The notes under the pieces are model-generated. The model saw only the letters and a list, made by a program, of their open reading frames with translations, ran no database searches and was not told where the DNA came from. This document shows, in pieces, positions 25,612 through 38,463 of a DNA stretch of 64,000 nucleotides (positions are counted from its first letter, which is position 1; each line of letters opens with the position of its first letter). A program made the position numbers and the translations under genes. This DNA comes from Gallionella sp. (GTDB taxonomy: Bacteria; Pseudomonadota; Gammaproteobacteria; Burkholderiales; Gallionellaceae): positions 8,323 to 72,322 of the forward strand of contig JAQTWT010000004.1 of assembly GCA_028689145.1 (NCBI GenBank), in the 5' to 3' direction.

Positions 25612-28056
25612 CTACCGCGCAACCAATAAAGCGGCAAATTCTTCACAGGGTATAGGCATGCTGAACAGATATCCCTGATAGAGCATGCAGCCATTCGCCT
25701 CAAGAAAATCGCGTTGTTCAGTCGTTTCCACGCCTTCGGCGATCACTTCCATGCCCAGATTGTTTGACATGCCGATGATGGTTTGAATGATGGTCGCATC
25801 GGAAGCTTTGCTGCCGATGTGGCGCACGAACGACTGGTCAATCTTGAGTTGGTCGAGCGGCAGTCTGGTCAGGTAAGCCAGCGACGAATAGCCGGTGCCA
25901 AAATCATCCATGGAGAAACGGATGCCGATTTTTCTAAGTGCCAGCATCTTGGCGATGGTGTCGTCAACATTGTCGAGCACAATACTCTCGGTCAGTTCAA
26001 GCTTGAGGCGCAACGGGTTAATGCCGGTCCGTTCGATGATTTCGCTTACCTGCGCGACGAAATCCGCCTGACGGAACTGCCTCCCGCTGACGTTGACGGC
26101 AAGCTGCAAATCGCGGGTAAGCGGGTCTGCTTCCCATATTTTGAGTTGCTCGCAGGCGCTTTCCAGCACCCAATGGCCGATCGGCAGGATCAGCCCGGTT
26201 TCTTCCGCCAGCGGGATGAATTGCAGCGGAGAAATCAAGCCGCGCTCCGGATGAATCCAGCGCAGCAAAACTTCAGCGCCCAGAATATCCCCGTCGTGGT
26301 TGACCTGCATCTGGTAATAAAGCCGGAATTCCTGCTTGCGCAACGCCTCGCGCAGCCCGCCTTCAAGCTGGGCGCGAACTTCCAGTTCCTCCTGCATCAC
26401 GGGATCGAAGAAGCGCAAGGTGTTGCGGCCGGATTTCTTGGCCTGATACATGGCCGTATCGGCCTGTTTAAGCAACTCGTCAAGATTGTCATTGTGGTTG
26501 ATGAACAGGGTGATGCCCATGCTCGATGAGCTATGAAACTCGTTTCCGTCCAACAAGTAGGGCTGACTGAGCGCGTCCAGCACTTTCTCTCCCACGCCCC
26601 GCGCCTGCACCGCAGCTTGCCCGCTTTCTTCGCTCAAACCTTCCAGCAACAGCACAAACTCGTCCCCGCCGAAACGCGACAGGGTATCGCCCTCGCGCAC
26701 GCAGGACTGCAGGCGTTTGGCCACTTCAACCAGCAGCAAGTCCCCGACACCGTGCCCTTTGGTGTCGTTCAGGGTCTTGAAGTTATCCAGATCGAGGAAC
26801 AGCAGCGCGCAACTGGTATGGTTGCGCGCACTGGTGGCCACCGACTGCCGCAGGCGGTCAAGCAACAGGCGCCGGTTGGGCAATTGGCAGAGCGGGTCAT
26901 AAAAAGCGAGATTGTGGATTTCATTTTCCGCCTGTTTGCGTTCGGTAAAGTCGATAAACGCACCGACGTAATTCGTTACCTTGCCGTCATCGCCGACAAC
27001 GGCGGTAATGTTCAACCACTCCGGGTAAACCTCCCCGTTTTTGCGCCGGTTCCATACTTCACCTTGCCAGCTATTTTCGTTCTTCAGACTTGCCCACATA
27101 CGCCTGAAGAACTCCTCGTCGTGGCGATCAGACTTGAGCATGGAAGGAGTTTTGCCGATGGCTTCTTCGGCACTGTAGCCGGTTAGCCGGGTGAACGCCT
27201 GATTGACCCGGATAATCGTCGCATGCTCATCGGTCACCATCATGCCTTCTTCGGTCTCGAAAGCGATGGCGGCGATACGCAAAGCGGCTTCGCGCTCTTC
27301 CTGCACCGACATCATCTTATTGAACACATGCGCCATATCGGCAATGTCCTTCGGCCCGCCTGGTTCGGCCCGCACCTGTGATTCGCCCATTTTTGCGCGC
27401 CTCATGCTGTCCGACAACTGGTTGAGCGGTTGCGTGATGGTGCGGGTAAGGAAGCGGATCAGGAACAGGAATAGCAGCGCGAAAGAAAACGATGTAACCA
27501 GATTCGAGATAAAAATGCCGGAGGTCGAGCGGGTTAGCGCCTCCTTGCTCAACACCACCGATACCTGGCCGAGCAATTCCGGGGAAACCGCTTCGCTGAA
27601 CGGCGATTCAGCGGACGGCTGCGAATAGACCGGCGCGCCAAAATGCCACGCCTTGCTGTTTTCCGCATTGAGCATGGCGGCGGCTTGCAACCCCCCAGTG
27701 TGTTCCTCCTGTCCGCGGAATTCACCGATATTGATGTTGCCGCGTGCCAGCAACACATGCCCGTTGGCATGGCGTATCTCCACACCGACCACCCCGGGGA
27801 AAGCCATGGTGACATTCACCGCCTCGGATGCATTGTCTGGCGAAGCATAAATTAGCGCCAGTGAACTTTGGTGCGCCAGATTCTCGGTGATGCGCTGACC
27901 CTGCTCGATAAGATCACGGCGCGCCCGCTCGTTACCCTGCCACGATCCCACAACAGATGAAAATAATGCCAAAAAGAGAATGCCGAGCGTAACCGTGATA
28001 CCGAGCTGGCGCTGGAAGGTGAGTTTTTGGAAAAATGCGGAAAACATTTTGTTCAT
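25612..28056 (-). CDS. Membrane-bound PAS-GGDEF-EAL protein (c-di-GMP turnover)
   Basis: The 814 residues comprise a membrane helix (about 18-38), an extracytoplasmic CHASE8-like sensor region (about 40-180), a second helix (about 183-205), HAMP (about 205-255), PAS (about 262-378), GGDEF with an intact RFGGDEF motif (about 385-545) and EAL with EVLLRW plus DDFGTGYSS and KIDQSFV (about 560-810). Both catalytic domains look competent, so it could make and break c-di-GMP. The gene for a periplasmic binding protein ends 122 bp upstream on the same strand, which suggests a ligand-sensing pair. Confidence 0.93.
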   Translation of the reverse strand: MNKMFSAFFQKLTFQRQLGITVTLGILFLALFSSVVGSWQGNERARRDLIEQGQRITENLAHQSSLALIYASPDNASEAVNVTMAFPGVVGVEIRHANGHVLLARGNINIGEFRGQEEHTGGLQAAAMLNAENSKAWHFGAPVYSQPSAESPFSEAVSPELLGQVSVVLSKEALTRSTSGIFISNLVTSFSFALLFLFLIRFLTRTITQPLNQLSDSMRRAKMGESQVRAEPGGPKDIADMAHVFNKMMSVQEEREAALRIAAIAFETEEGMMVTDEHATIIRVNQAFTRLTGYSAEEAIGKTPSMLKSDRHDEEFFRRMWASLKNENSWQGEVWNRRKNGEVYPEWLNITAVVGDDGKVTNYVGAFIDFTERKQAENEIHNLAFYDPLCQLPNRRLLLDRLRQSVATSARNHTSCALLFLDLDNFKTLNDTKGHGVGDLLLVEVAKRLQSCVREGDTLSRFGGDEFVLLLEGLSEESGQAAVQARGVGEKVLDALSQPYLLDGNEFHSSSSMGITLFINHNDNLDELLKQADTAMYQAKKSGRNTLRFFDPVMQEELEVRAQLEGGLREALRKQEFRLYYQMQVNHDGDILGAEVLLRWIHPERGLISPLQFIPLAEETGLILPIGHWVLESACEQLKIWEADPLTRDLQLAVNVSGRQFRQADFVAQVSEIIERTGINPLRLKLELTESIVLDNVDDTIAKMLALRKIGIRFSMDDFGTGYSSLAYLTRLPLDQLKIDQSFVRHIGSKASDATIIQTIIGMSNNLGMEVIAEGVETTEQRDFLEANGCMLYQGYLFSMPIPCEEFAALLVAR

Positions 28057-28178: not shown

Positions 28179-29399
28179 TTATTGTTCGGGGAACGCCATG
28201 TCGAAACTTTTCGGGCGACTAGTATTGAGTCCAAGGTGCTTGGCGGTACGCAGATTGATCGCCATCAGCACTTCGCGCAACGGAACCATGCCGGATACCC
28301 CGCTTGCCCCGGAAGCCAGAAAGTCGAGCGCGGAACCAGCAAGATGACGGCCCAACTCGACATTATTGGGGTACAGCGAAAACAGCACACCGCGCCGGAC
28401 ATGGCCGAAACTGCTGGAGAATACCGCCAGATTGCGCGACCATGATTCCTGCAGCACCAGCGGGAGCACCGTGCTGTCTTCCACCGTGGTGGAATCCTGG
28501 GGCAGCCATAACGCATCCTGACTGCTGTCGGCGGCGGCAAAAATCTCCTGATAAGCCCGCATCGCGCTGCGCAAGTCCTGTGCCTCGTAGGCGGTAAACT
28601 CCAAACCCTGAGCGCGCGCGGCCTCTTTCGCCAGACGCACCATCCACGCATTCTGGCGCGGGTCGTACACCGTGAACACGCGCCGCACCTTGGGCATCAT
28701 TCCCTTCAGGCGCGAAAACAGCAACGCCGGATCCGGCGACAGGCTGTTCACCTGCCGGTCACTCGCTTCATTTTCCGTCGAGGTCAATACACCGCCCACC
28801 ACCATACCGAGATTGCTGTCCAGCGTGGAGGCCGCCTTCACCCCCTGCCTGCCCAGCGCAATCACCACTCTGGTATTACTGCGGCGCAGGGAGTTATTCA
28901 GTTCACCCGCATCCACATTTGCGCCCACCGCAAAATTGGCAACCCGCCCTTTGGCTTTGGCCTCGATACCCGCAATGATCTGTGCGAATACACTGCGATA
29001 AGGTTCGCCGATGTCCGGGTAGATTACCGCGATGTTGCCTTCCCCGGAGGCCTGCGCGATTTTATTGGTAAGGTTTCTGGGTGCGCGGGCGACAACCGAG
29101 CCGGCGACTCGGATCGGGAAAACCACCACGTCCGGAAACGCCTCGATGGCGCGAATCACCTCATCTTCCGGCTCCGGCTGCGGTTTGGAAAGTGACGGGA
29201 TGAACGGGTCGATGGCATGAATTACCCCGGCGTAATCTTCCTGCCGGGAGACATTGCCGTCGGTATCTTTCGGGATCGCCCATGCCGGAGCAGCGGCATC
29301 CAGCAGCAGCGCAATTGCCAGCAACCAAGCCGGCAAACTACCCCCCCGACAGTTCGATGGCACTGTGCCGGATATTGAAAGTACCGTGAACTTAGCCAT
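28179..29399 (-). CDS. ABC-transporter-type periplasmic substrate-binding protein
   Basis: A 406-residue protein with a signal peptide (hydrophobic LPAWLLAIALLLDAAAPAWA, cleavage near residue 41). The rest resembles the TrpX-like/DUF534 ABC substrate-binding family: GNIAVIYPDIGEPYRSVFAQIIAGI, NTRVVIALGRQGVKAA, VRRVFTVYDPRQNAWMV and the C-terminal INLRTAKHLGLNTS signature. No permease or ATPase gene is nearby, so it may act as a sensory binding protein for the GGDEF/EAL membrane protein encoded next, rather than in transport. That pairing is inference. Confidence 0.75.
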   Translation of the reverse strand: MAKFTVLSISGTVPSNCRGGSLPAWLLAIALLLDAAAPAWAIPKDTDGNVSRQEDYAGVIHAIDPFIPSLSKPQPEPEDEVIRAIEAFPDVVVFPIRVAGSVVARAPRNLTNKIAQASGEGNIAVIYPDIGEPYRSVFAQIIAGIEAKAKGRVANFAVGANVDAGELNNSLRRSNTRVVIALGRQGVKAASTLDSNLGMVVGGVLTSTENEASDRQVNSLSPDPALLFSRLKGMMPKVRRVFTVYDPRQNAWMVRLAKEAARAQGLEFTAYEAQDLRSAMRAYQEIFAAADSSQDALWLPQDSTTVEDSTVLPLVLQESWSRNLAVFSSSFGHVRRGVLFSLYPNNVELGRHLAGSALDFLASGASGVSGMVPLREVLMAINLRTAKHLGLNTSRPKSFDMAFPEQ

Positions 29400-29733: not shown

Positions 29734-31575
29734 ATGGACATTAACATTGCGCTTGCCCGCAGCCCGGTAATAAAGGCTGCGGCAAGCCCGGAGATTATTC
29801 CGGCGCAAACGCCGGAAGTGGCCGATTTGCTGGTGGCCTATCTGGAACAGATCGGTGTCGAATACGTATTCGGCGTGCCGGGAGGGGCCATTGAGCCCCT
29901 GTTTAATGCCATGGCGCGCAGCCAACGGCGCGGCGGCCTGCGTCCAATCGTGGCGCGGCACGAGGCGGGGGCGGCATTCATGGCCGACGGCTATGCCCGC
30001 GAGACCGGACGTTTGGGGGTATGTTGCGCCACTTCCGGCCCCGGCTCGACCAACTTGATTACCGGCGTGGCATGCGCGCACGACAACAATGTCCCGCTGC
30101 TGGCAATCAGCGGTCTCCCGGTTCTGTCTTCGTTCGGCAAAGGCGCGTTGCAGGAATCGTCCAACACCGGCGTCAACGCCTTTGCCATGTTCGACCACTG
30201 CACCCGTTACAACGCCATGGTATCCCACCCCGGCCACTTCGAACGCAAGCTGGCCAACGCCCTGATGACAGCGCACCAGGCCCCCGGCGGTCCGGCGCAT
30301 CTGGCCATCCCGCTGGACATCCTGCGTTGCGCGGCACCGGGCATCACGCCCACTTACGACCTGGCTGCCTTGTTCACCCACGAGCCCGTCTTGATCGACG
30401 AACGCGCGGTACAGCAACTCCTGAACGAACTGCGCTTATCCCCGCGCGTCGCGTTTCTGATCGGCGCCTCCTGCGGCGAAGCGATCGAAGCAATCATGCA
30501 ACTGGCCGACCTGACCGGGGCACTGTTCGTCACCACCCCCGATGCCAAAGGCTTCATCAATCCGCTCCATCCGGCTTATTGCGGCGTATTCGGCTTCGGC
30601 GGTCACGCCAGCGCCAACGCGCTGCTGTCCAGCACGCCGGACATCGTATTGGCTTTCGGAACCGGATTCAGCGAATTGATCAGCGGCGGCTGGTGCGATT
30701 CCCTGCTCAACAAACGTCTGGTGCACATCGATAATTCGGAGGAAAACCTGATGCGTTCGCCGATGGCCATGCTGCATGTGCGCGGCAACATCCACTCGGT
30801 ATGCGAACGCCTGATCGGACTGCTGCAAGCCTGCTATCCGTCCGGCCTTGAGAACCCCGCGCGCTCGAACGAATCGCTGCGCGAGTTTCACGTTAACGTA
30901 ACCTTGCAATCGCCCGAAAACTACAGCTCCGACGCTACTCCGATCAAGCCGCAACGGCTCATGAAAACACTGTCCGAGCGCTGCCCGCCCAACACGCGTT
31001 TTCTCGCCGACTCCGGCAACAGCATGTTGTGGACGGTACATTATCTCCAACCCCTCAACCGGCGAATTGAGCGGGCGCGTGCCAATGGGCAAGGGCCGGA
31101 ACAACGCTCGGGCATGGCCAGCTGGTTGCGCGTGATGATGGACTTTTGCCCGATGGGTTGGGCCATCGGTGCGGCAGTCGGCATCGCGCGCGGCAATCCG
31201 GTTTGTCCGGTTGTGTGCATTACCGGCGACGGCGCTTTTCTGATGAGCGGACAGGAAATCACCGTGGCCGCCATGGAGCGGCTCACCGTCGTCTTTGTCG
31301 TTCTCAACGACAGCGCTTTGGGCATGGTCAAACACGGTCAGCGGCTGGCTCAGGCCGAACCTGTCGGCTACGAACTGCCGCAGGTCGATTACTGCAAACT
31401 TGCCGAAGCCATGGGCATTCCAGGCCACGTCATCTGCTCGCCGCAAGAACTGGATAATCTCGACTTCGACGCGATCCTGCGGCGCAAAGGACCAACGCTG
31501 CTCGACGTGCGCATCGACGGCGAGGAAATTCCGCCTATGGTGCTGCGTATGAAAACATTGGGAAGTATGAAATGA
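29734..31575 (+). CDS. Acetolactate-synthase-like ThDP-dependent enzyme
   Basis: A 613-residue enzyme of the IlvB/pyruvate-oxidase family: N-terminal ThDP pyrimidine domain (VFGVPGGAIEPLFNAMA, cofactor-activating Glu in ARHEAGAAFMADGYAR), a central domain, and a C-terminal diphosphate-binding domain (CITGDGAFLMSGQEITVAAM...VVLND). It is longer than usual for IlvB and no small subunit (ilvN) is nearby, so a role in branched-chain amino acid synthesis is unlikely. It starts an operon with an SDR and two citrate-synthase-like proteins, which suggests C-C bond formation from a 2-oxoacid. Residues SNESLREFHVN near residue 380 are encoded by 31 bp identical to a dispersed repeat. Confidence 0.85.
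   Translation: MDINIALARSPVIKAAASPEIIPAQTPEVADLLVAYLEQIGVEYVFGVPGGAIEPLFNAMARSQRRGGLRPIVARHEAGAAFMADGYARETGRLGVCCATSGPGSTNLITGVACAHDNNVPLLAISGLPVLSSFGKGALQESSNTGVNAFAMFDHCTRYNAMVSHPGHFERKLANALMTAHQAPGGPAHLAIPLDILRCAAPGITPTYDLAALFTHEPVLIDERAVQQLLNELRLSPRVAFLIGASCGEAIEAIMQLADLTGALFVTTPDAKGFINPLHPAYCGVFGFGGHASANALLSSTPDIVLAFGTGFSELISGGWCDSLLNKRLVHIDNSEENLMRSPMAMLHVRGNIHSVCERLIGLLQACYPSGLENPARSNESLREFHVNVTLQSPENYSSDATPIKPQRLMKTLSERCPPNTRFLADSGNSMLWTVHYLQPLNRRIERARANGQGPEQRSGMASWLRVMMDFCPMGWAIGAAVGIARGNPVCPVVCITGDGAFLMSGQEITVAAMERLTVVFVVLNDSALGMVKHGQRLAQAEPVGYELPQVDYCKLAEAMGIPGHVICSPQELDNLDFDAILRRKGPTLLDVRIDGEEIPPMVLRMKTLGSMK
30866..30896. repeat. 31-bp piece of a dispersed repeat inside the ThDP-enzyme gene
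   Basis: Exactly the reverse complement of 14835-14865, the outer end of the 123-bp intergenic repeat. It is read in frame within the linker between the central and C-terminal domains. Confidence 0.8.
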
Positions 31576-31657: not shown

Positions 31658-32422
31658 ATGATCGTGGACAGACTCAAAGGAAAAACGGTACTGATTACCG
31701 GCGGCACAAGCGGCATCGGTCTTGCCAGCGCCAGGCTTTTTCGTTCCGAAGGCGCGCGACTGGCGGTCACGGGGCGCAACCCGGAAAGACTGGCGACCGC
31801 GCAAGCGGAGTTAGGCGGCGAAACGCTGGTTATTCCAAGCGAGGCAAGCAATTTGTCCGAAATAGATTCCCTGATGGAGCAGGTGAAAAATCACTTTGGG
31901 CAACTGGATGTACTGTTCCTTAACGCGGCGTTGTCCTCACCCGCACCGATAGAACAGGTGTCCGAAGCCCAATTCGACAAAATTATCGGGGTCAATTTTA
32001 AAGGGGTATTCTTCACTATCCAGAAAGCGCTGCCGCTACTCGGCAAAAACGCATCCATTATTGTCACCACCTCGATCACCAACCGGACAGGCTCCCCCAA
32101 TTTTAGCGTGTATGGCGCGAGCAAAGCCGCTTTGCGCTCGCTCGTACAGTCTCTTGGGCTGGCGCTCATCAGCCGCGGAATCCGGGTCAACGCAATCAAT
32201 CCTGGGCCGATAGAAACCGGGGGCTTTAACCGTTTACCGCTTCCTCGGGATGTGTTCCAAGCCATCAAAAACGACATTGAGGGCAAGTCCCCCATCAAGC
32301 GTTTCGGCACCCCGGAAGAGGTCGCGAAGGTGGCTCTTTTTCTTGCTTCGGACGACTCGGCTTATGTGGTCGGCGAAGAAATCGTCGTGGATGGCGGTAT
32401 CAGCCTGGTGTGCTTACCTTAG
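31658..32422 (+). CDS. Short-chain dehydrogenase/reductase (SDR)
   Basis: A 254-residue classical SDR: cofactor-binding TGGTSGIGLASA near residue 14, NAA in LFLNAALSS near residue 89, the catalytic Ser in VTTSI, and YGASK (Tyr-Lys) near residue 152, then INPGPIETG. All active-site residues are present. The Arg after the Gly-rich strand (TGRNPERL) favours NADP(H). It is the second gene of the ThDP/citrate-synthase-like operon, so it probably reduces a carbonyl made by the ThDP enzyme; the substrate is unknown. Confidence 0.9.
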   Translation: MIVDRLKGKTVLITGGTSGIGLASARLFRSEGARLAVTGRNPERLATAQAELGGETLVIPSEASNLSEIDSLMEQVKNHFGQLDVLFLNAALSSPAPIEQVSEAQFDKIIGVNFKGVFFTIQKALPLLGKNASIIVTTSITNRTGSPNFSVYGASKAALRSLVQSLGLALISRGIRVNAINPGPIETGGFNRLPLPRDVFQAIKNDIEGKSPIKRFGTPEEVAKVALFLASDDSAYVVGEEIVVDGGISLVCLP

Positions 32423-32430
32423 GAGTCCAT

Positions 32431-33243
32431 ATGCCCGATAACAAAAATGCCAACATGATACGCAGCCGTATCTGGCGCGAAGAGCCGGAACCCGACAATC
32501 CATATGCCACCCGTGCTGCTTATTGCCGGGGTTACGATGTCTTCGGTCAAATGGTGGGAAATGCGCGGTGGGTCGAAATGCTGGCACTGCTGTTCCGCGA
32601 CGAATTGCCCGGCACGGCCGCACTCGACATGCTGGAAGCCTTGGCGGTTGCGCTCGCCAACCCCGGCCCGCGCGACCCGTCGATACACGCGGCCATGTGC
32701 GGCGGCGTGGGCGGTTCCAGCGCCGCCGCGTCCCTGATTGCCGCACTCTCCGTGGGTGCGGGTCGCTATCGCGGCGCGCGCGAAGTATTCGATGCCATGA
32801 CCGCCTGGAAAACCTGCGATACTGATCTCGATGCTTGGAATAACTACAGCCGCCGCGATACAAGCAACGACATCGTGGACACATGGCCCCGGCGCGAACA
32901 TCCGCCCGGCTTCGATCCCCACGGCGTATCCACGGCCACCAGCGTGCGCCGGTTGCTGGAAACACTGGCGCGTATCGGTGCAACTCCGCGACTAACCTGG
33001 CTGGCATCGCAACACCGGGAACTGGAACAATGCGTCGGCCTCCCGCTGGATGTCAGCGGCGTCGCCTCGGCCGCATTTGCGGATTTGGGATACACGCCGA
33101 ACGAAGGGGAAATGCTTTTTCTGCTGCTGCGTCTACCCGGCGCGGCGGCGCACGCGCTGGAACAGGAAAGCTACGGTTACAAGCGCTTCCCCTTCTACCC
33201 AGTGGAACTGGAAGACGATCCTGCGACCAGAGAAATGCCATGA
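32431..33243 (+). CDS. Citrate-synthase-fold protein 1, catalytic residues replaced
   Basis: A 270-residue protein with the citrate synthase/citryl-CoA lyase pattern: GYDVFGQMVGNARWVEMLALLFRDELP, DPSIHAAM...ASLIAALSVGAGRYRGA, and the C-terminal LPLDVSGVASAAFADLGYTP. By eye alignment the first catalytic His (GPLHGGA in lyases) is Tyr113, the GFGH motif reads GFDP, and the catalytic Asp (NVDG) is Ser209. Chemistry as in classical citrate synthase is therefore unlikely. The start at 32431 follows TAGGAG; the stop overlaps the next gene by 4 bp (ATGA), so the two proteins probably form a heteromer. Confidence 0.7.
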   Translation: MPDNKNANMIRSRIWREEPEPDNPYATRAAYCRGYDVFGQMVGNARWVEMLALLFRDELPGTAALDMLEALAVALANPGPRDPSIHAAMCGGVGGSSAAASLIAALSVGAGRYRGAREVFDAMTAWKTCDTDLDAWNNYSRRDTSNDIVDTWPRREHPPGFDPHGVSTATSVRRLLETLARIGATPRLTWLASQHRELEQCVGLPLDVSGVASAAFADLGYTPNEGEMLFLLLRLPGAAAHALEQESYGYKRFPFYPVELEDDPATREMP

Positions 33244-34052
33244 ACGGCCCCGAATTATTGGCAGCCCATAGCGGCATCCTGCGCACCAAAGTCGGTGCCT
33301 GCTGGCCGGGCACGCGCGCGGTATTTCGCGGCCACGACCTGCATCGGGACTTGCACGATACCGACTGGCTGGAACTATACCTGTTCGGCATCACCGGCCG
33401 CCGCTTCACTCCCCGGCAAGTCAAGCTACTGCACGGCATCTGGGTCATCACCAGCTACCCCGACGCGCGCATCTGGAACAACCGCGTCGCCGCTCTGGCC
33501 GGCAGCAGCCGCAGCTCTCCGGTGCTGGGCTTGGCCGCTGCACTCGCCGTTTCCGAGGCACGCATCTATGGCGGCGGCCCCGGTCTGCGCGCCATCGACT
33601 TTTTTCTGCGCGCCGGAAAAGCGCTCGCCTCCGGCCAAGCGCTACGCGAGTTCATCACCGGAGAACTCACGGTACGCCATATTTACGGTTATGGCCGCCC
33701 TATCGATTCCTGCGACGAACGCTTGCCCTGGCTTGTCAACCTTGCCAAGGAGCAAGGGCAGGATCAGGGACAGCATTTCAAAATCGCGTTCGAGGTCGAA
33801 AAAATCCTGTTGGAAATGGGAAAAACCAATTTACGCATGAATTACGCCGGCATGACATCCGCCCTCGGGGCTGACTTGGGACTTACGCCGCGCGAATTTC
33901 ACTTGTTCCGCGTACCGATGTTTTTGGCAGGCATGCCACCGTGCTGGGTGGAAGCAGCGGAAAAACCCCAAGGAACGCTGTTTCCGACACCTTGTGACGG
34001 CATTACCTACGAAGGTGTCGGACAACGAGCCTGGCACAATAAAATATCTTGA
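33240..34052 (+). CDS. Citrate-synthase-fold protein 2, catalytic residues replaced
   Basis: Also 270 residues, a paralogue-like partner of the preceding protein. Recognisable parts are NRVAALAGSSRSSPVLGLAA, SEARIYGGGPG, the well-kept GYGRPIDSCDERLPWLV (GFGHPxYKxxDPR in enzymes) and LRMNYAGMTSALGADLGL (LPINVDG). The three catalytic positions read Tyr110, Arg153 and Ala203 in place of His, His and Asp. The fold seems kept while the known mechanism is lost in both copies. It is last in the operon; the TonB receptors follow 235 bp later. The function is not known. Confidence 0.7.
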   Translation: MNGPELLAAHSGILRTKVGACWPGTRAVFRGHDLHRDLHDTDWLELYLFGITGRRFTPRQVKLLHGIWVITSYPDARIWNNRVAALAGSSRSSPVLGLAAALAVSEARIYGGGPGLRAIDFFLRAGKALASGQALREFITGELTVRHIYGYGRPIDSCDERLPWLVNLAKEQGQDQGQHFKIAFEVEKILLEMGKTNLRMNYAGMTSALGADLGLTPREFHLFRVPMFLAGMPPCWVEAAEKPQGTLFPTPCDGITYEGVGQRAWHNKIS

Positions 34053-34287: not shown

Positions 34288-36362
34288 ATGCAACCGACTA
34301 CTCGTCACCTGACAATTTTTATCATGCTGGCTTTAGCCTGGAGCGGCACTGCCGCCGCCCAGACCTCCGAAGAGGATGACTTTGCCTTAGTCTACGGCGA
34401 CAAGTCCAACATCAGCATCGCCACCGGCAGTTCGCAAGCCATCACCCGCGCGCCCTCCAGTGCGACGGTCATCACCTCCCACGACATCAAAGCCATGGGG
34501 GCGACCAATCTTGACCGTGTTCTGGAAGCGGTTCCGGGGCTGCATGTTTCTCTGAACAACATCGCCTTGAATCCGATTTACAGCTTCCGCGGCATTACGA
34601 CCAAGCAAAATCCGCAGGTGTTGATGCTGGTCAACGGTATCCCGATCACCAATGTATTTCCGGTAATCGCGGCCAGCTATGGGGTGGCATGCCGCTGGAA
34701 AACGTGGCGCGCATCGAAATCATCCGCGGGCCGGGTTCCGCACTGTATGGTGCCGATGCCTTTTCCGGGGTAATCAATGTCATTACCAAAACGGCGGCTG
34801 ATGTCAGTGGCACAGAATACGGCGCGCGCGCAGGCAGCTTCAACACCCGCGATGCCTGGATACAACACGGTGGCAAGCTGGGAGAACTGGATGCGCTATT
34901 TTATCTGGGGGTGGGCAATACCGACGGACAGAAGGGCATCATCCAGGAAGATGCTCAAACCAGAATGGATGCAAGATTCGGCACGGCGGTATCGCTCGCG
35001 CCGGGGCCTATCAATGCGCAGAACAAATCGGTCGATGCGCGCGCCGATTTATCCTATCAGGCATGGCGTTTCCGCGCGGCTTACCAGCAGCGTGAGCTGG
35101 GGAGCGGCGGTGGGCTTGGCGGTAGCCTCGATCCTTACGCGCGCACGCACCCTTCACGGCTTTATCTGGATCTGAGCTACGACCAGGCCAACTGGGCGCA
35201 AAACTGGAATGTATCCGCAGTGGTCGGGTATTACGACATCAAGGACACGTCCGGCAATCCAACCTATACGTTATTTCCGGCAGGAGCGAAGATTGGTGCC
35301 AATACTTTTCCCAACGGGATGATCGGCAATCCGGGACATTACGAGCAGCACACTCACGCCAGCGTTTCAGCCGTCTATACCGGCTTTGAGCAGCATCGGA
35401 TACGCACGGGCACAGGATACCGTGTCGAGGATATGTATGCGGTTCAAGAGAGCAAAAATTACGGCCCGACATACGCACCGCTTCCGCAAGGACTCGTCGA
35501 TGCAACCGGCAACCCGGCGCTTGCTTATCTGCTCCCGCACAAACGCAACCTAGCCTTTGTTTTTGCACAGGACGAATGGAACTTCGCACAGGACTGGACG
35601 CTGACGGCAGGCGTGCGGCATGACCGCTATTCGGACTTCGGCGGCACTACCAACCCCCGTCTCGCGCTGGTGTGGGATGCGGCATACAATGTCGTGGTCA
35701 AAGCCATGCATGGCACGGCTTTCCGCGCCCCGTCATTCTCCGAGCAATTTGGCCTCAACAATCCCGTGGTTGTCGGTAATCCCAATATCAAGCCTGAGAC
35801 CATCACTACCGACGAGCTGGGTTTGTCCTGGCAGCCGGTACCTCAGCTAAAAACCGATCTGAATTTCTTCCAATACAACATGCGCAACATTATTTTGCCC
35901 GTTGGGGCTGTGTATCAGAATAGCGGAGGTCAAACCGGTCAGGGTTTTGAATTTGAGGCAACTTTTGAGGCTGCCAGCAATCTGCAATTGACCGGCAATG
36001 TTTCGGTGCAGCACTCGAAGGATGCAGCTACTGGACAGGATGCAGGTTTGGCTCCGCATCAACGCTTTTTTGCCCGTGTTGACTGGCGTTTTGTGCCGCT
36101 TTGGCAATTGGGCACCACGATCAACAATGTCAGAGGAAGAATGCGGGAGCCTGGCGACACTCGCGCGCTGCTTCCGGATTACACCACAGTGGATTTAACC
36201 TTGCGCCATGAAAAAATCGCCAGCGATTGGGAAATAAGCGCGACAGTGACGAACCTGTTCAATCGCGATGCCAGAGAACCGACCTTTAAATCCGTGGGGA
36301 TGAATTCCGATCTGCCGCTGCCCGGACGCGCTTTTTACGTCCAAGCGCAGCATAAGCTTTGA
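34288..36362 (+). pseudogene. TonB-dependent receptor 1, single frameshift
   Basis: A start with signal peptide (MQPTTRHLTIFIMLALAWSG...AAAQ) leads into the plug domain (SSATVITSHDIKAMGATNLD, FRGITTKQNPQVLMLVNGIP) up to about 34660. Then one base is missing compared with the downstream paralogue, and the frame continues (GGMPLENVARIEIIRGPGSA) through the whole beta-barrel to 36362 (FYVQAQHKL). Restoring one base at about 34660-34668 gives a full receptor of about 690 residues. GGGAGAG precedes the start. It is either a recent inactivation or a sequencing error. The 5' element shared with the ThDP operon suggests common control. Confidence 0.85.
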
Positions 36363-36405: not shown

Positions 36406-38463
36406 TTGAATCGCCAAACACTCTGTGCTTTTCTGGCCTTCGCCTCTATCGGCACCGCTGCCGCCGCGCAGACCTCCGAAGAGGAAGACTTGGCATTAAT
36501 CTATGGTGATAAATCCACCATCAGCCTCGCCACAGGCAGTTCACAACCTATCAGCCGTGCGCCTTCCGTCGCCTCAGTGATCACTTCGCAGGACATCGCA
36601 GCGATGGGCGCGACAGACCTCGATCAGGCGCTGGCGAGCGTGCCCGGCCTGCATGTCTCAATGAACAACGTCGCACTGAATCCGATCTACGGTTTTCGCG
36701 GCATAGTCACCATAAATAACCCGCAAGTGCTGATGCTGGTCAATGGCATCCCGATCACCAATGTGTTTTGGGGCGACCGCAGCCAGATTTGGGGAGGGAT
36801 GCCGCTGGAGAATGTGGCGCGCGTCGAAGTGATCCGCGGACCGGGATCGGCGCTGTATGGTGCCGATGCCTTCTCCGGCGTGATCAACGTCATCACCAAG
36901 ACCGCTGCCGACATCAAAGGCACCGAAACCGGCGTGCGACTGGGTAGTTTCAATAGCCGTGATGCGTGGTTGCAACACGGCGGCAAGCTGGGGGCTATGG
37001 ATGCCGCTTTTTATCTCCGCATCGGCAACACTGACGGACACCGAGGCATCATCCAGCAGGATGCACAGACGGCCTTCGATACGATATTCGGCACCAATGC
37101 CTCGCTTGCACCCGGCCCGATTAACACCGAACGCAAGGCGCTCGATGCGCGCACCGATTTGTCGTTTGATGCATGGCGCTTGCGTGCGGCCTATCAACAA
37201 CGTGCTGTCGGGGTAGTCGCTTTGGGGGGCAGTCTGGATCCCAATGGGCGCGGACATTCGTCAAGACTCTATCTGGATCTGAACTACGAACAAGTCAACT
37301 GGGTGACGGATTGGGATGTGTCCGGCGTGCTCGGTTATTACGACATCAAAGACAAGCCGGGCGACCCGGCCTACACGCTATTTCCTGCCGGTGCCTTTGG
37401 TGGCGCTTTCCCCGACGGCATGATCGGCAACCCGGGACATTCGGAACAGCACACGCACACCAGCCTTTCCGCTGTCTATACTGGCTTCAAGCAACATCGT
37501 GTGCGCCTTGGCGCGGGATACCGGGTAGAGGATCTGTATGCAGTGAAAGAAGTGAAGAATTTCGACGCGACGTTCGCCCCGTTGCCCGGCGGCTTGGTGG
37601 ATGCCACAGGCAATCCGGCGCTGGTCTTTCAGATGCCGCACAAGCGCAACGTTTCCTTCGCGTTCGTTCAGGACGAATGGAGTTTCGCGCAGGACTGGAG
37701 GCTGACCGCCGGCGTGCGCCACGACCATTATTCGGATTTCGGCGGCACCACCAATCCGCGTCTGGCGCTGGTGTGGGATGCCGCTTACAACGTTGTAGTC
37801 AAGGCTATGCACGGAACCGCCTTCCGCGCCCCTTCGTTCTCCGAGCAATACTCCATCAATAATCCGGTGGCCATCGGTAGCCCAAACATCAAGCCGGAGA
37901 CTATCACCACCGACGAACTGGCGTTCTCATGGCAGACCACCTCCACCCTGCAAAACAATCTGAACTTTTTCCGCTACCGCATGCGCGGCATCATCCTGCC
38001 CACTGGCGCGATTTACCAGAACGCGGGTGGCCAGACCGGTCGCGGACTGGAACTGGAATCGACTTATGATGCCACGTCCAACCTGCGCCTGAGCGGCAGC
38101 TTCTCCCTGCAACACTCGACCGATGAAGCAACCGGACAAGATGCTGGTATGGCACCGCATCGCCGTCTTTTTGCCCGCGCAGATTGGCGTTTCACGCCGC
38201 GATGGCAGCTCGGCACTACAGTCAACCATGTGGCAGACCGGATGCGCGAGCCGGGCGATACCCGCGCGCATATCCCCGACTACACCACGGTGGATTTGAT
38301 CCTGCGCCGCGAGAAGTTCGCTGACGGCTGGGATGCGCGCGCCACAATAACCAATCTGTTCAATCGCGATGCGAGAGAGCCCACCTTCAAGAGCGCCGGT
38401 ATGCCTTCAGACATGCCGCTTTCCGGCCGTGCTTTTTACGTCCAGGTACAGCACGGGCTTTGA
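36406..38463 (+). CDS. TonB-dependent outer-membrane receptor 2
   Basis: A 685-residue receptor with a signal peptide (cleavage near TAAAAQ), a short acidic segment (TSEEEDLALIYGD), an intact plug (about 45-160, VLMLVNGIPITNVFWGDRSQ) and a 22-strand-type barrel ending in the aromatic-terminal segment GRAFYVQVQHGL. It is the tandem paralogue of the frameshifted gene 43 bp upstream, about three quarters identical by eye. The start codon is TTG. Receptors of this look import siderophores, cobalamin-like or other scarce ligands; the ligand here is unknown, but the neighbouring enzymes could make or modify it. Confidence 0.9.
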   Translation: MNRQTLCAFLAFASIGTAAAAQTSEEEDLALIYGDKSTISLATGSSQPISRAPSVASVITSQDIAAMGATDLDQALASVPGLHVSMNNVALNPIYGFRGIVTINNPQVLMLVNGIPITNVFWGDRSQIWGGMPLENVARVEVIRGPGSALYGADAFSGVINVITKTAADIKGTETGVRLGSFNSRDAWLQHGGKLGAMDAAFYLRIGNTDGHRGIIQQDAQTAFDTIFGTNASLAPGPINTERKALDARTDLSFDAWRLRAAYQQRAVGVVALGGSLDPNGRGHSSRLYLDLNYEQVNWVTDWDVSGVLGYYDIKDKPGDPAYTLFPAGAFGGAFPDGMIGNPGHSEQHTHTSLSAVYTGFKQHRVRLGAGYRVEDLYAVKEVKNFDATFAPLPGGLVDATGNPALVFQMPHKRNVSFAFVQDEWSFAQDWRLTAGVRHDHYSDFGGTTNPRLALVWDAAYNVVVKAMHGTAFRAPSFSEQYSINNPVAIGSPNIKPETITTDELAFSWQTTSTLQNNLNFFRYRMRGIILPTGAIYQNAGGQTGRGLELESTYDATSNLRLSGSFSLQHSTDEATGQDAGMAPHRRLFARADWRFTPRWQLGTTVNHVADRMREPGDTRAHIPDYTTVDLILRREKFADGWDARATITNLFNRDAREPTFKSAGMPSDMPLSGRAFYVQVQHGL

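Follow-up and report, generated by a model that had tools for sequence, protein, structure and literature searches.

What do two adjacent proteins of the citrate synthase fold do when neither of them carries the catalytic triad? To our knowledge, citrate-synthase-fold enzymes are known for a single chemistry, which is based on His-His-Asp. The window that we analysed is a 64,000-nucleotide stretch of a Gallionella sp. contig, and a first-pass annotation had described within it two overlapping genes of exactly 270 codons each. Their coordinates and lengths held up; the products are called P1 and P2 here, and the genes share a 4-base ATGA overlap. The genes of the locus are as follows.

25612..28056, minus strand: HAMP-PAS-GGDEF-EAL signalling protein, adjoining the binding protein gene
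28179..29399, minus strand: ABC_sub_bind protein (PF04392), its gene pointing away from the ThDP gene
29734..31575, plus strand: ThDP-dependent enzyme of the acetolactate-synthase superfamily
31658..32422, plus strand: SDR (short-chain dehydrogenase/reductase)
32431..33243, plus strand: P1, citryl-CoA-lyase-fold subunit, 270 aa and stop
33240..34052, plus strand: P2, citryl-CoA-lyase-fold subunit, 270 aa and stop
34288..36362, plus strand: first TonB-dependent receptor copy, two overlapping frames (34288-34773 and 34689-36362), interrupted in the assembly
36406..38463, plus strand: second TonB-dependent receptor copy, a single open frame of 685 aa

The citrate synthase/citryl-CoA lyase framework that had been read from the letters was borne out for both chains by profiles and by structural comparison. 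The best match of the P1 family profile was the citryl-CoA lyase 6hxp (E 1.8e-10), as it was for the P2 family profile (E 2.1e-10). Foldseek with AlphaFold2 models likewise placed 6hxp at the top for P1 (E 4.1e-9) and P2 (E 2.2e-8), with TM values of 0.63–0.75 against 6hxp for the two models, which are of moderate confidence (mean pLDDT 84.7 for P1 and 79.1 for P2). Searches with single sequences found citryl-CoA lyase as the best match of P1 and no citryl-CoA lyase match for P2 alone. P1 scored 14.3 bits with Pfam PF00285, below the cut-off of 27, and the Pfam scan of P2 returned no family. None of the NCBIfam citryl-CoA lyase models was passed, with scores of at most 60.4 bits (the best of them against 261) and cut-offs of at least 193. 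The low-confidence regions of the P2 model (approximately residues 71–110 and 231–270) contain many of the invariant residues described below, which would fit a need for a partner to order them. The possibility that the pair replaces the housekeeping citrate synthase was rejected; the genome has a separate citrate synthase that passes the Pfam cut-off at G000:C3:91185-92270.

To place the triad positions, both families were aligned, profile to profile, with same-phylum single-gene relatives that have His, His and Asp (L061, L063, L064 and L065). The E-values of these alignments were 6.9e-24 for P1 and 4.3e-18 for P2. In P1 the triad positions are occupied by Tyr113, Pro163 (within a GFDP motif) and Ser209, as the first-pass annotation had read them. 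In P2 the reading stood for Arg153 and Ala203, whereas the placement of Tyr110 at the first histidine varies by method within one residue: it falls on Tyr110 by motif comparison, on Gly111 by hhalign and on Ile109 by MAFFT. Histidine occurs at positions 109, 110 and 111 in 0 of 58 P2 proteins, and at position 108 in 5 of 51 near P2s. HMMER against 6hxp alone sets P2 Arg153 off by one, as though the second histidine had been deleted. A complete His-His-Asp triad was found in 0 of 57 P1 and 0 of 58 P2 proteins. These counts include the window; for P1 they cover 50 near and 7 distant proteins (omitting a 146-aa P1 fragment at L010), and for P2 51 near proteins and 7 distant ones (A1 comprises 39 of 50 sequences and A2 41 of 51).

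The two chains differ in what has become of the lost positions. In P2, eight residues are invariant in all 58 sequences (Pro74, Asp75, Arg77, Trp79, Arg153, Pro154, Arg161 and Asn201), Tyr110 is present in 57 with one Phe, and C235 is present in 54. At position 203 the P2 proteins have Gly, Ala, Ser or Val, and in no case Asp. The conserved constellation of P2 can thus be written as PDxRxW (74-79), Y110, RP (153-154), R161 and N201. In P1, position 113 is Ser in 17, Tyr in 10, Leu in 7, Asn in 6, His in 4 and other residues in 6 of the 50 near proteins, and reads L, A, A, H, H, H and H in the seven distant ones. At the remaining triad positions, none of the 57 P1 proteins has histidine (position 163) or aspartate (position 209). 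H241, W152 and R81 are each present in 57 of 57; the C-terminal stretch of the window P1 retains R234, H241, E244 and Q245. Free variation of the substituted positions among homologues is therefore found at P1-113 but not in P2, and no homologue that we saw has regained the triad. Judged from these columns, P1 has lost constraint at the first histidine, position 113 being under little of it, and P2 looks rebuilt, not decayed.

We take P2 R161 and P1 R234 to be the equivalents of Arg329 and Arg401 of pig citrate synthase, the arginines that bind substrate carboxylates. P2 retains the first of them (R161, 58/58) and has F228 at the second position in the alignment. Near P1s retain the second (R234 in 50/50, compared with 1/7 distant proteins), and the first is absent in the window P1. 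Because the carboxylate arginines are split between P1 and P2 in this way, neither chain would be able to hold citrate in the known manner.

We then asked in which other genomes the same pair occurs. The analysis covered 56 loci beyond the window, 49 near and 7 distant, from Pseudomonadota, Thermodesulfobacteriota and one Fibrobacterota MAG, with owners including Gallionella, Sideroxydans, Geobacter, Aquabacterium and Dechloromonas. Cultured bacteria such as Dechloromonas hankyongensis, Pelotalea chapellei and a Roseateles strain are among the owners. The distribution is patchy, both within the genus (11 of 37 genomes, some of the 37 being incomplete) and across the phylum (10 of 398 genomes sampled). 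Five more matches in the phylum sample are CCL-like proteins with no second such gene within the 3.4–3.7 kb retrieved. Spread by plasmids or viruses was rejected: the plasmid collection held no match to P2 (E 1e-3) or to the ThDP protein (E 1e-60), and the 22 viral stretches picked up by a pattern search included none that encodes a relative. A defence system was rejected as well, the six locus proteins tested having no PADLOC match.

Wherever the pair occurs it is tightly coupled. In all 50 cases examined the gene immediately 5' of P2 is P1, and the ATGA overlap is common to 47, where gene starts were chosen by script and the 146-aa fragment at L010 is counted as adjacent. Additionally, the P1 and P2 distance matrices of 49 loci correlate with r=0.915, a value that 0 of 999 permutations equalled, while the distances of P1 and P2 to those of the ThDP enzyme give r=0.54–0.57 each over the 49 loci. 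The constant adjacency, the shared overlap and the correlated distances together point to P1 and P2 forming an obligate heteromer. With the ThDP gene present in 54 of 56 loci (L010 and L027 end at a contig edge before it), the earlier proposal of a pair with a changed role gains support, now as an obligate pair.

The origin of the pair was examined in a 77-row tree, drawn with a midpoint and no outgroup, that holds the window, 23 of the 49 near loci (chosen by us), the seven distant loci and, from 23 CCL (citryl-CoA lyase) rows, 15. Among the CCL rows L061 and L081 are the same gene and eight were excluded as misread or full-length citrate synthases; P1 of L037 and P2 of L020 were omitted on length. 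P1 forms one clade (99/91) and P2 another (100/100), with 31 rows each. The tree joins P1 to the CCL rows and not to P2, so that the two are not sisters apart from the citryl-CoA lyases, and this grouping lends no support to a single duplication from an altered ancestor. The first-pass annotation had argued for such an ancestor from a tyrosine shared by both chains. That argument fails, since Tyr at P1-113 is a minority state among the near proteins and His is kept in one P1 branch (4 of 7 distant proteins). Rows of the Geobacter group and of the Fibrobacterota MAG are nested within proteobacterial rows, which suggests that the pair has moved between phyla, although the contig of the MAG may have been mis-binned. 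Triad-altered CCL-like single proteins (L062, L084-L086, L088 and L089) resemble P1 and P2 in family, in length and in missing the first His and the Asp. In contrast to the pair, their second His is still in place (G-[FY]-G-H), and in the tree they group with the other CCL rows and belong to neither the P1 nor the P2 clade.

The third constant gene encodes the ThDP-dependent enzyme, whose nearest solved relatives are BbmA (8x3x) and CsmA (8x3z). Its top three PDB sequences are BbmA, BbmA G484F and CsmA, with E-values of 1.3e-80 for BbmA, 1.6e-70 for CsmA and 2.7e-55 for acetolactate synthase I. NCBIfam ranks the acetolactate synthase model TIGR00118 first, at 268 bits and below its cut-off of 538, and may contain no model for the CybE-type group; a CybE-like function thus rests on the PDB ranking. 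Residues E77, G498, G500 and N525 are each present in 52 of 52 ThDP rows and D499 in 51, with at least one distant paralogue among the rows (L015, a second ThDP gene). We take Glu77 and G498-D499-G500...N525 to be the ThDP catalytic/cofactor motif. Among solved structures the window enzyme is thus closest to BbmA and CsmA, which belong to the CybE-type synthases of furanolide biosynthesis (CybE, CsmA and BbmA/BpmA), and it retains the Glu and GDG...N.

One paper names CsmA an α-hydroxy-β-keto acid synthase (PMC13307353), and another names CsmA and BpmA as CybE homologues (PMC12395478), where BpmA is taken as the BbmA of the PDB entry. According to the latter, precyanobacterin synthesis uses CybE to couple two 2-oxo acids, after which CybF links the CybE product to coumaroyl-CoA (PMC12395478). 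By analogy, the window ThDP enzyme most likely joins two 2-oxo acids decarboxylatively to give an α-hydroxy-β-keto acid. The 3-oxoacyl-ACP synthase fold differs from the citrate-synthase fold. As CybF is annotated as a 3-oxoacyl-ACP synthase (PMC8777810), the second step is not transferable from CybF to P1/P2; in furanolide pathways CybF is the next enzyme, whereas here a citrate-synthase-fold pair stands beside the synthase.

The link between the pair and the ThDP enzyme persists when the partners are exchanged. Four Geobacter-group loci carry a ThDP enzyme of another subtype, with 35–36% mean identity to the other near loci compared with 60% among those, whereas their P1 and P2 remain of the window type (53–63% identity). 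Conversely, a chimeric locus in the window's own genus (G402, L106 950-6909) has distant-type P1 and P2, 49–55% identical to those of L071-L074, together with a beta-type ThDP enzyme that is 68% identical to that of Dechloromonas. The TonB receptor of this chimeric locus shares 70% identity with that of the window. From these exchanges, the link within the trio of ThDP enzyme, P1 and P2 looks functional, not merely positional. One Pseudomonadales genome carries two tandem trio copies in the order ThDP-P1-P2 (L024 5350-12591).

Beyond the trio, the neighbourhood, as matched by tblastn (E 1e-8), is variable. The SDR is optional, with 11 of the 56 other loci having it at 56% identity or more and adjacency not constant, and a P450 occurs in 7 of 56; being optional, both resemble tailoring genes. 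A homologue of the second TonB-dependent receptor copy is present in 45 of 56 other loci and one of the ABC_sub_bind protein in 30 of 56, with a Geobacter-type ABC_sub_bind protein alone in 5 further loci. Local matches to the HAMP-PAS-GGDEF-EAL protein were found in 35 of 56. A large Ser/Thr-kinase/histidine-kinase occurs in 5 of 56 loci; histidine-kinase queries cross-match widely and were left uncounted, with domains checked on single examples. Six loci have neither a TonB receptor nor a large kinase, of which L002, L011, L018, L020 and L041 are cut by a contig edge and L047 is uncut.

No TonB receptor match lies near the trio in L071-L074. There the gene adjoining the trio is a relative of a Ser/Thr-kinase/AAA/GAF/histidine-kinase gene, with the domains identified by Pfam for L073 alone. 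A response-regulator-like gene is found as well in L071, L073 and L074, of the LuxR type by Pfam in L073 only. In L071, L073, L074 and L026 the large kinase-related proteins near the trio are 1727–1872 aa long, with no TonB match, and that of L072 is a 653-aa piece. An acyl-carrier protein upstream of the trio (L071/L073) was considered and rejected, the small shared protein of L073 being without a Pfam match. None of the eight proteins covered by the Pfam scan of the window (25.6–40.4 kb) matched a ketosynthase family. The genome of the window also holds a second TonB/ABC_sub_bind/GGDEF module that lacks the trio (L105, G000:C7:331000-349000) and comes after four genes with histidine-kinase-like matches. 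With a module of this kind standing apart from the trio, it is less certain that the receptor recognises what the trio makes.

The arrangement of the trio with uptake and sensor genes suggests an undescribed route to make and detect a small molecule. Known citrate-synthase-fold members bind acyl-CoA and carboxylates. In the reading that we propose, an obligate heteromer on the citryl-CoA lyase fold, of which P1 and P2 each supply one half, would have been rebuilt for another step and have abandoned citrate chemistry. Like CybE, CsmA and BbmA, the neighbouring ThDP enzyme would make an α-hydroxy-β-keto acid from two 2-oxo acids. This acid would be held by conserved arginines of P2, perhaps with an acyl-CoA as the second substrate of the pair, and acylation, condensation or cyclisation by P1/P2 would give a small molecule, possibly resembling a lactone or furanone. 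In some genomes SDR or P450 enzymes may tailor the product, which would be secreted, then re-imported or bound via the TonB receptor and the binding protein, and sensed by the GGDEF/EAL or kinase protein encoded next to them. As a whole, this reading of a rebuilt heteromer that takes the second step after the ThDP enzyme towards a secreted small molecule has, in our judgement, about an even chance of being correct. A bolder version, possible but doubtful, is that the trio represents an undescribed class of diffusible signal: a three-gene synthase would yield a butenolide- or acyloin-like molecule read by interchangeable receptors, and the fold would have gained C-C/C-O bond-forming chemistry with Tyr/Arg/Asn replacing His/His/Asp. 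In some owners the TonB receptor and binding protein would pass the signal to a hybrid kinase or to an enzyme of c-di-GMP turnover; in others a giant Ser/Thr-kinase/histidine-kinase would serve as the receptor.

Three other explanations were weighed against a rebuilt biosynthetic pair. The unconstrained position 113 among the 50 near P1s is what decaying citryl-CoA lyase paralogues, kept by chance or by hitch-hiking, would be expected to display. Decay is highly improbable, however, and we rejected it on selection and on the invariant residues: dN/dS was 0.08–0.26 in 30 of 30 pairwise comparisons (window and five close loci), being 0.09–0.21 in the 14 pairs with dS of at most 1 and less reliable in the 16 pairs with dS above 1; the P2 substitutions are conserved; and the pair is shared by Pseudomonadota, Thermodesulfobacteriota and the Fibrobacterota MAG. 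Because the new residues of P2 are invariant, a new reaction is favoured over decay. The pair might instead be non-catalytic, binding the product of the ThDP enzyme or an acyl-CoA and regulating that enzyme as a regulatory subunit would. Absence of the triad from both chains and the near-constant ThDP gene agree with such a binder, which we nevertheless find rather improbable, since the exchange of pair and ThDP subtypes is easier to reconcile with enzymes acting in sequence than with a tight complex, and the dense invariant polar set of P2 (R77, Y110, R153, R161 and N201) is unusual for a mere scaffold.

Somewhat less improbable, though still unlikely, is a catabolic cassette in which the TonB receptor imports a compound, the SDR, the ThDP enzyme and P1/P2 (as a lyase) degrade it, and the sensor reports its presence. 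Citryl-CoA lyase runs in the cleaving direction, ThDP lyases exist within the same superfamily (2-hydroxyacyl-CoA lyase), and the frequency of TonB and ABC_sub_bind homologues among the loci is as a cassette for uptake would have it. On the other hand, a relative of the large kinase adjoins the trio in L071-L074 where a TonB match is lacking, the nearest solved ThDP relatives are biosynthetic, and no ABC permease was recognised among the neighbours that were annotated.

P1 and P2 have the same fold, length and topology as the citryl-CoA lyase 6hxp of Hydrogenobacter thermophilus and the lyase module of ATP-citrate lyase. Unlike citryl-CoA lyase, they are two diverged chains, each with an incomplete triad (57/57 and 58/58), that miss the cut-offs of all Pfam and NCBIfam models matched and adjoin a ThDP enzyme and sensors. 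In the open-access full texts searched we found no description of such a pair or trio, and the review PMC12247030 has no Bbm, Csm or citrate term. A widespread, selected pair with another invariant set of residues would show a new use of a fold of central metabolism, and a citrate-synthase-fold pair at the place of CybF would be a different solution to that step. Should its product act as a signal, bacteria with the trio would have a communication system not found in the literature searched.
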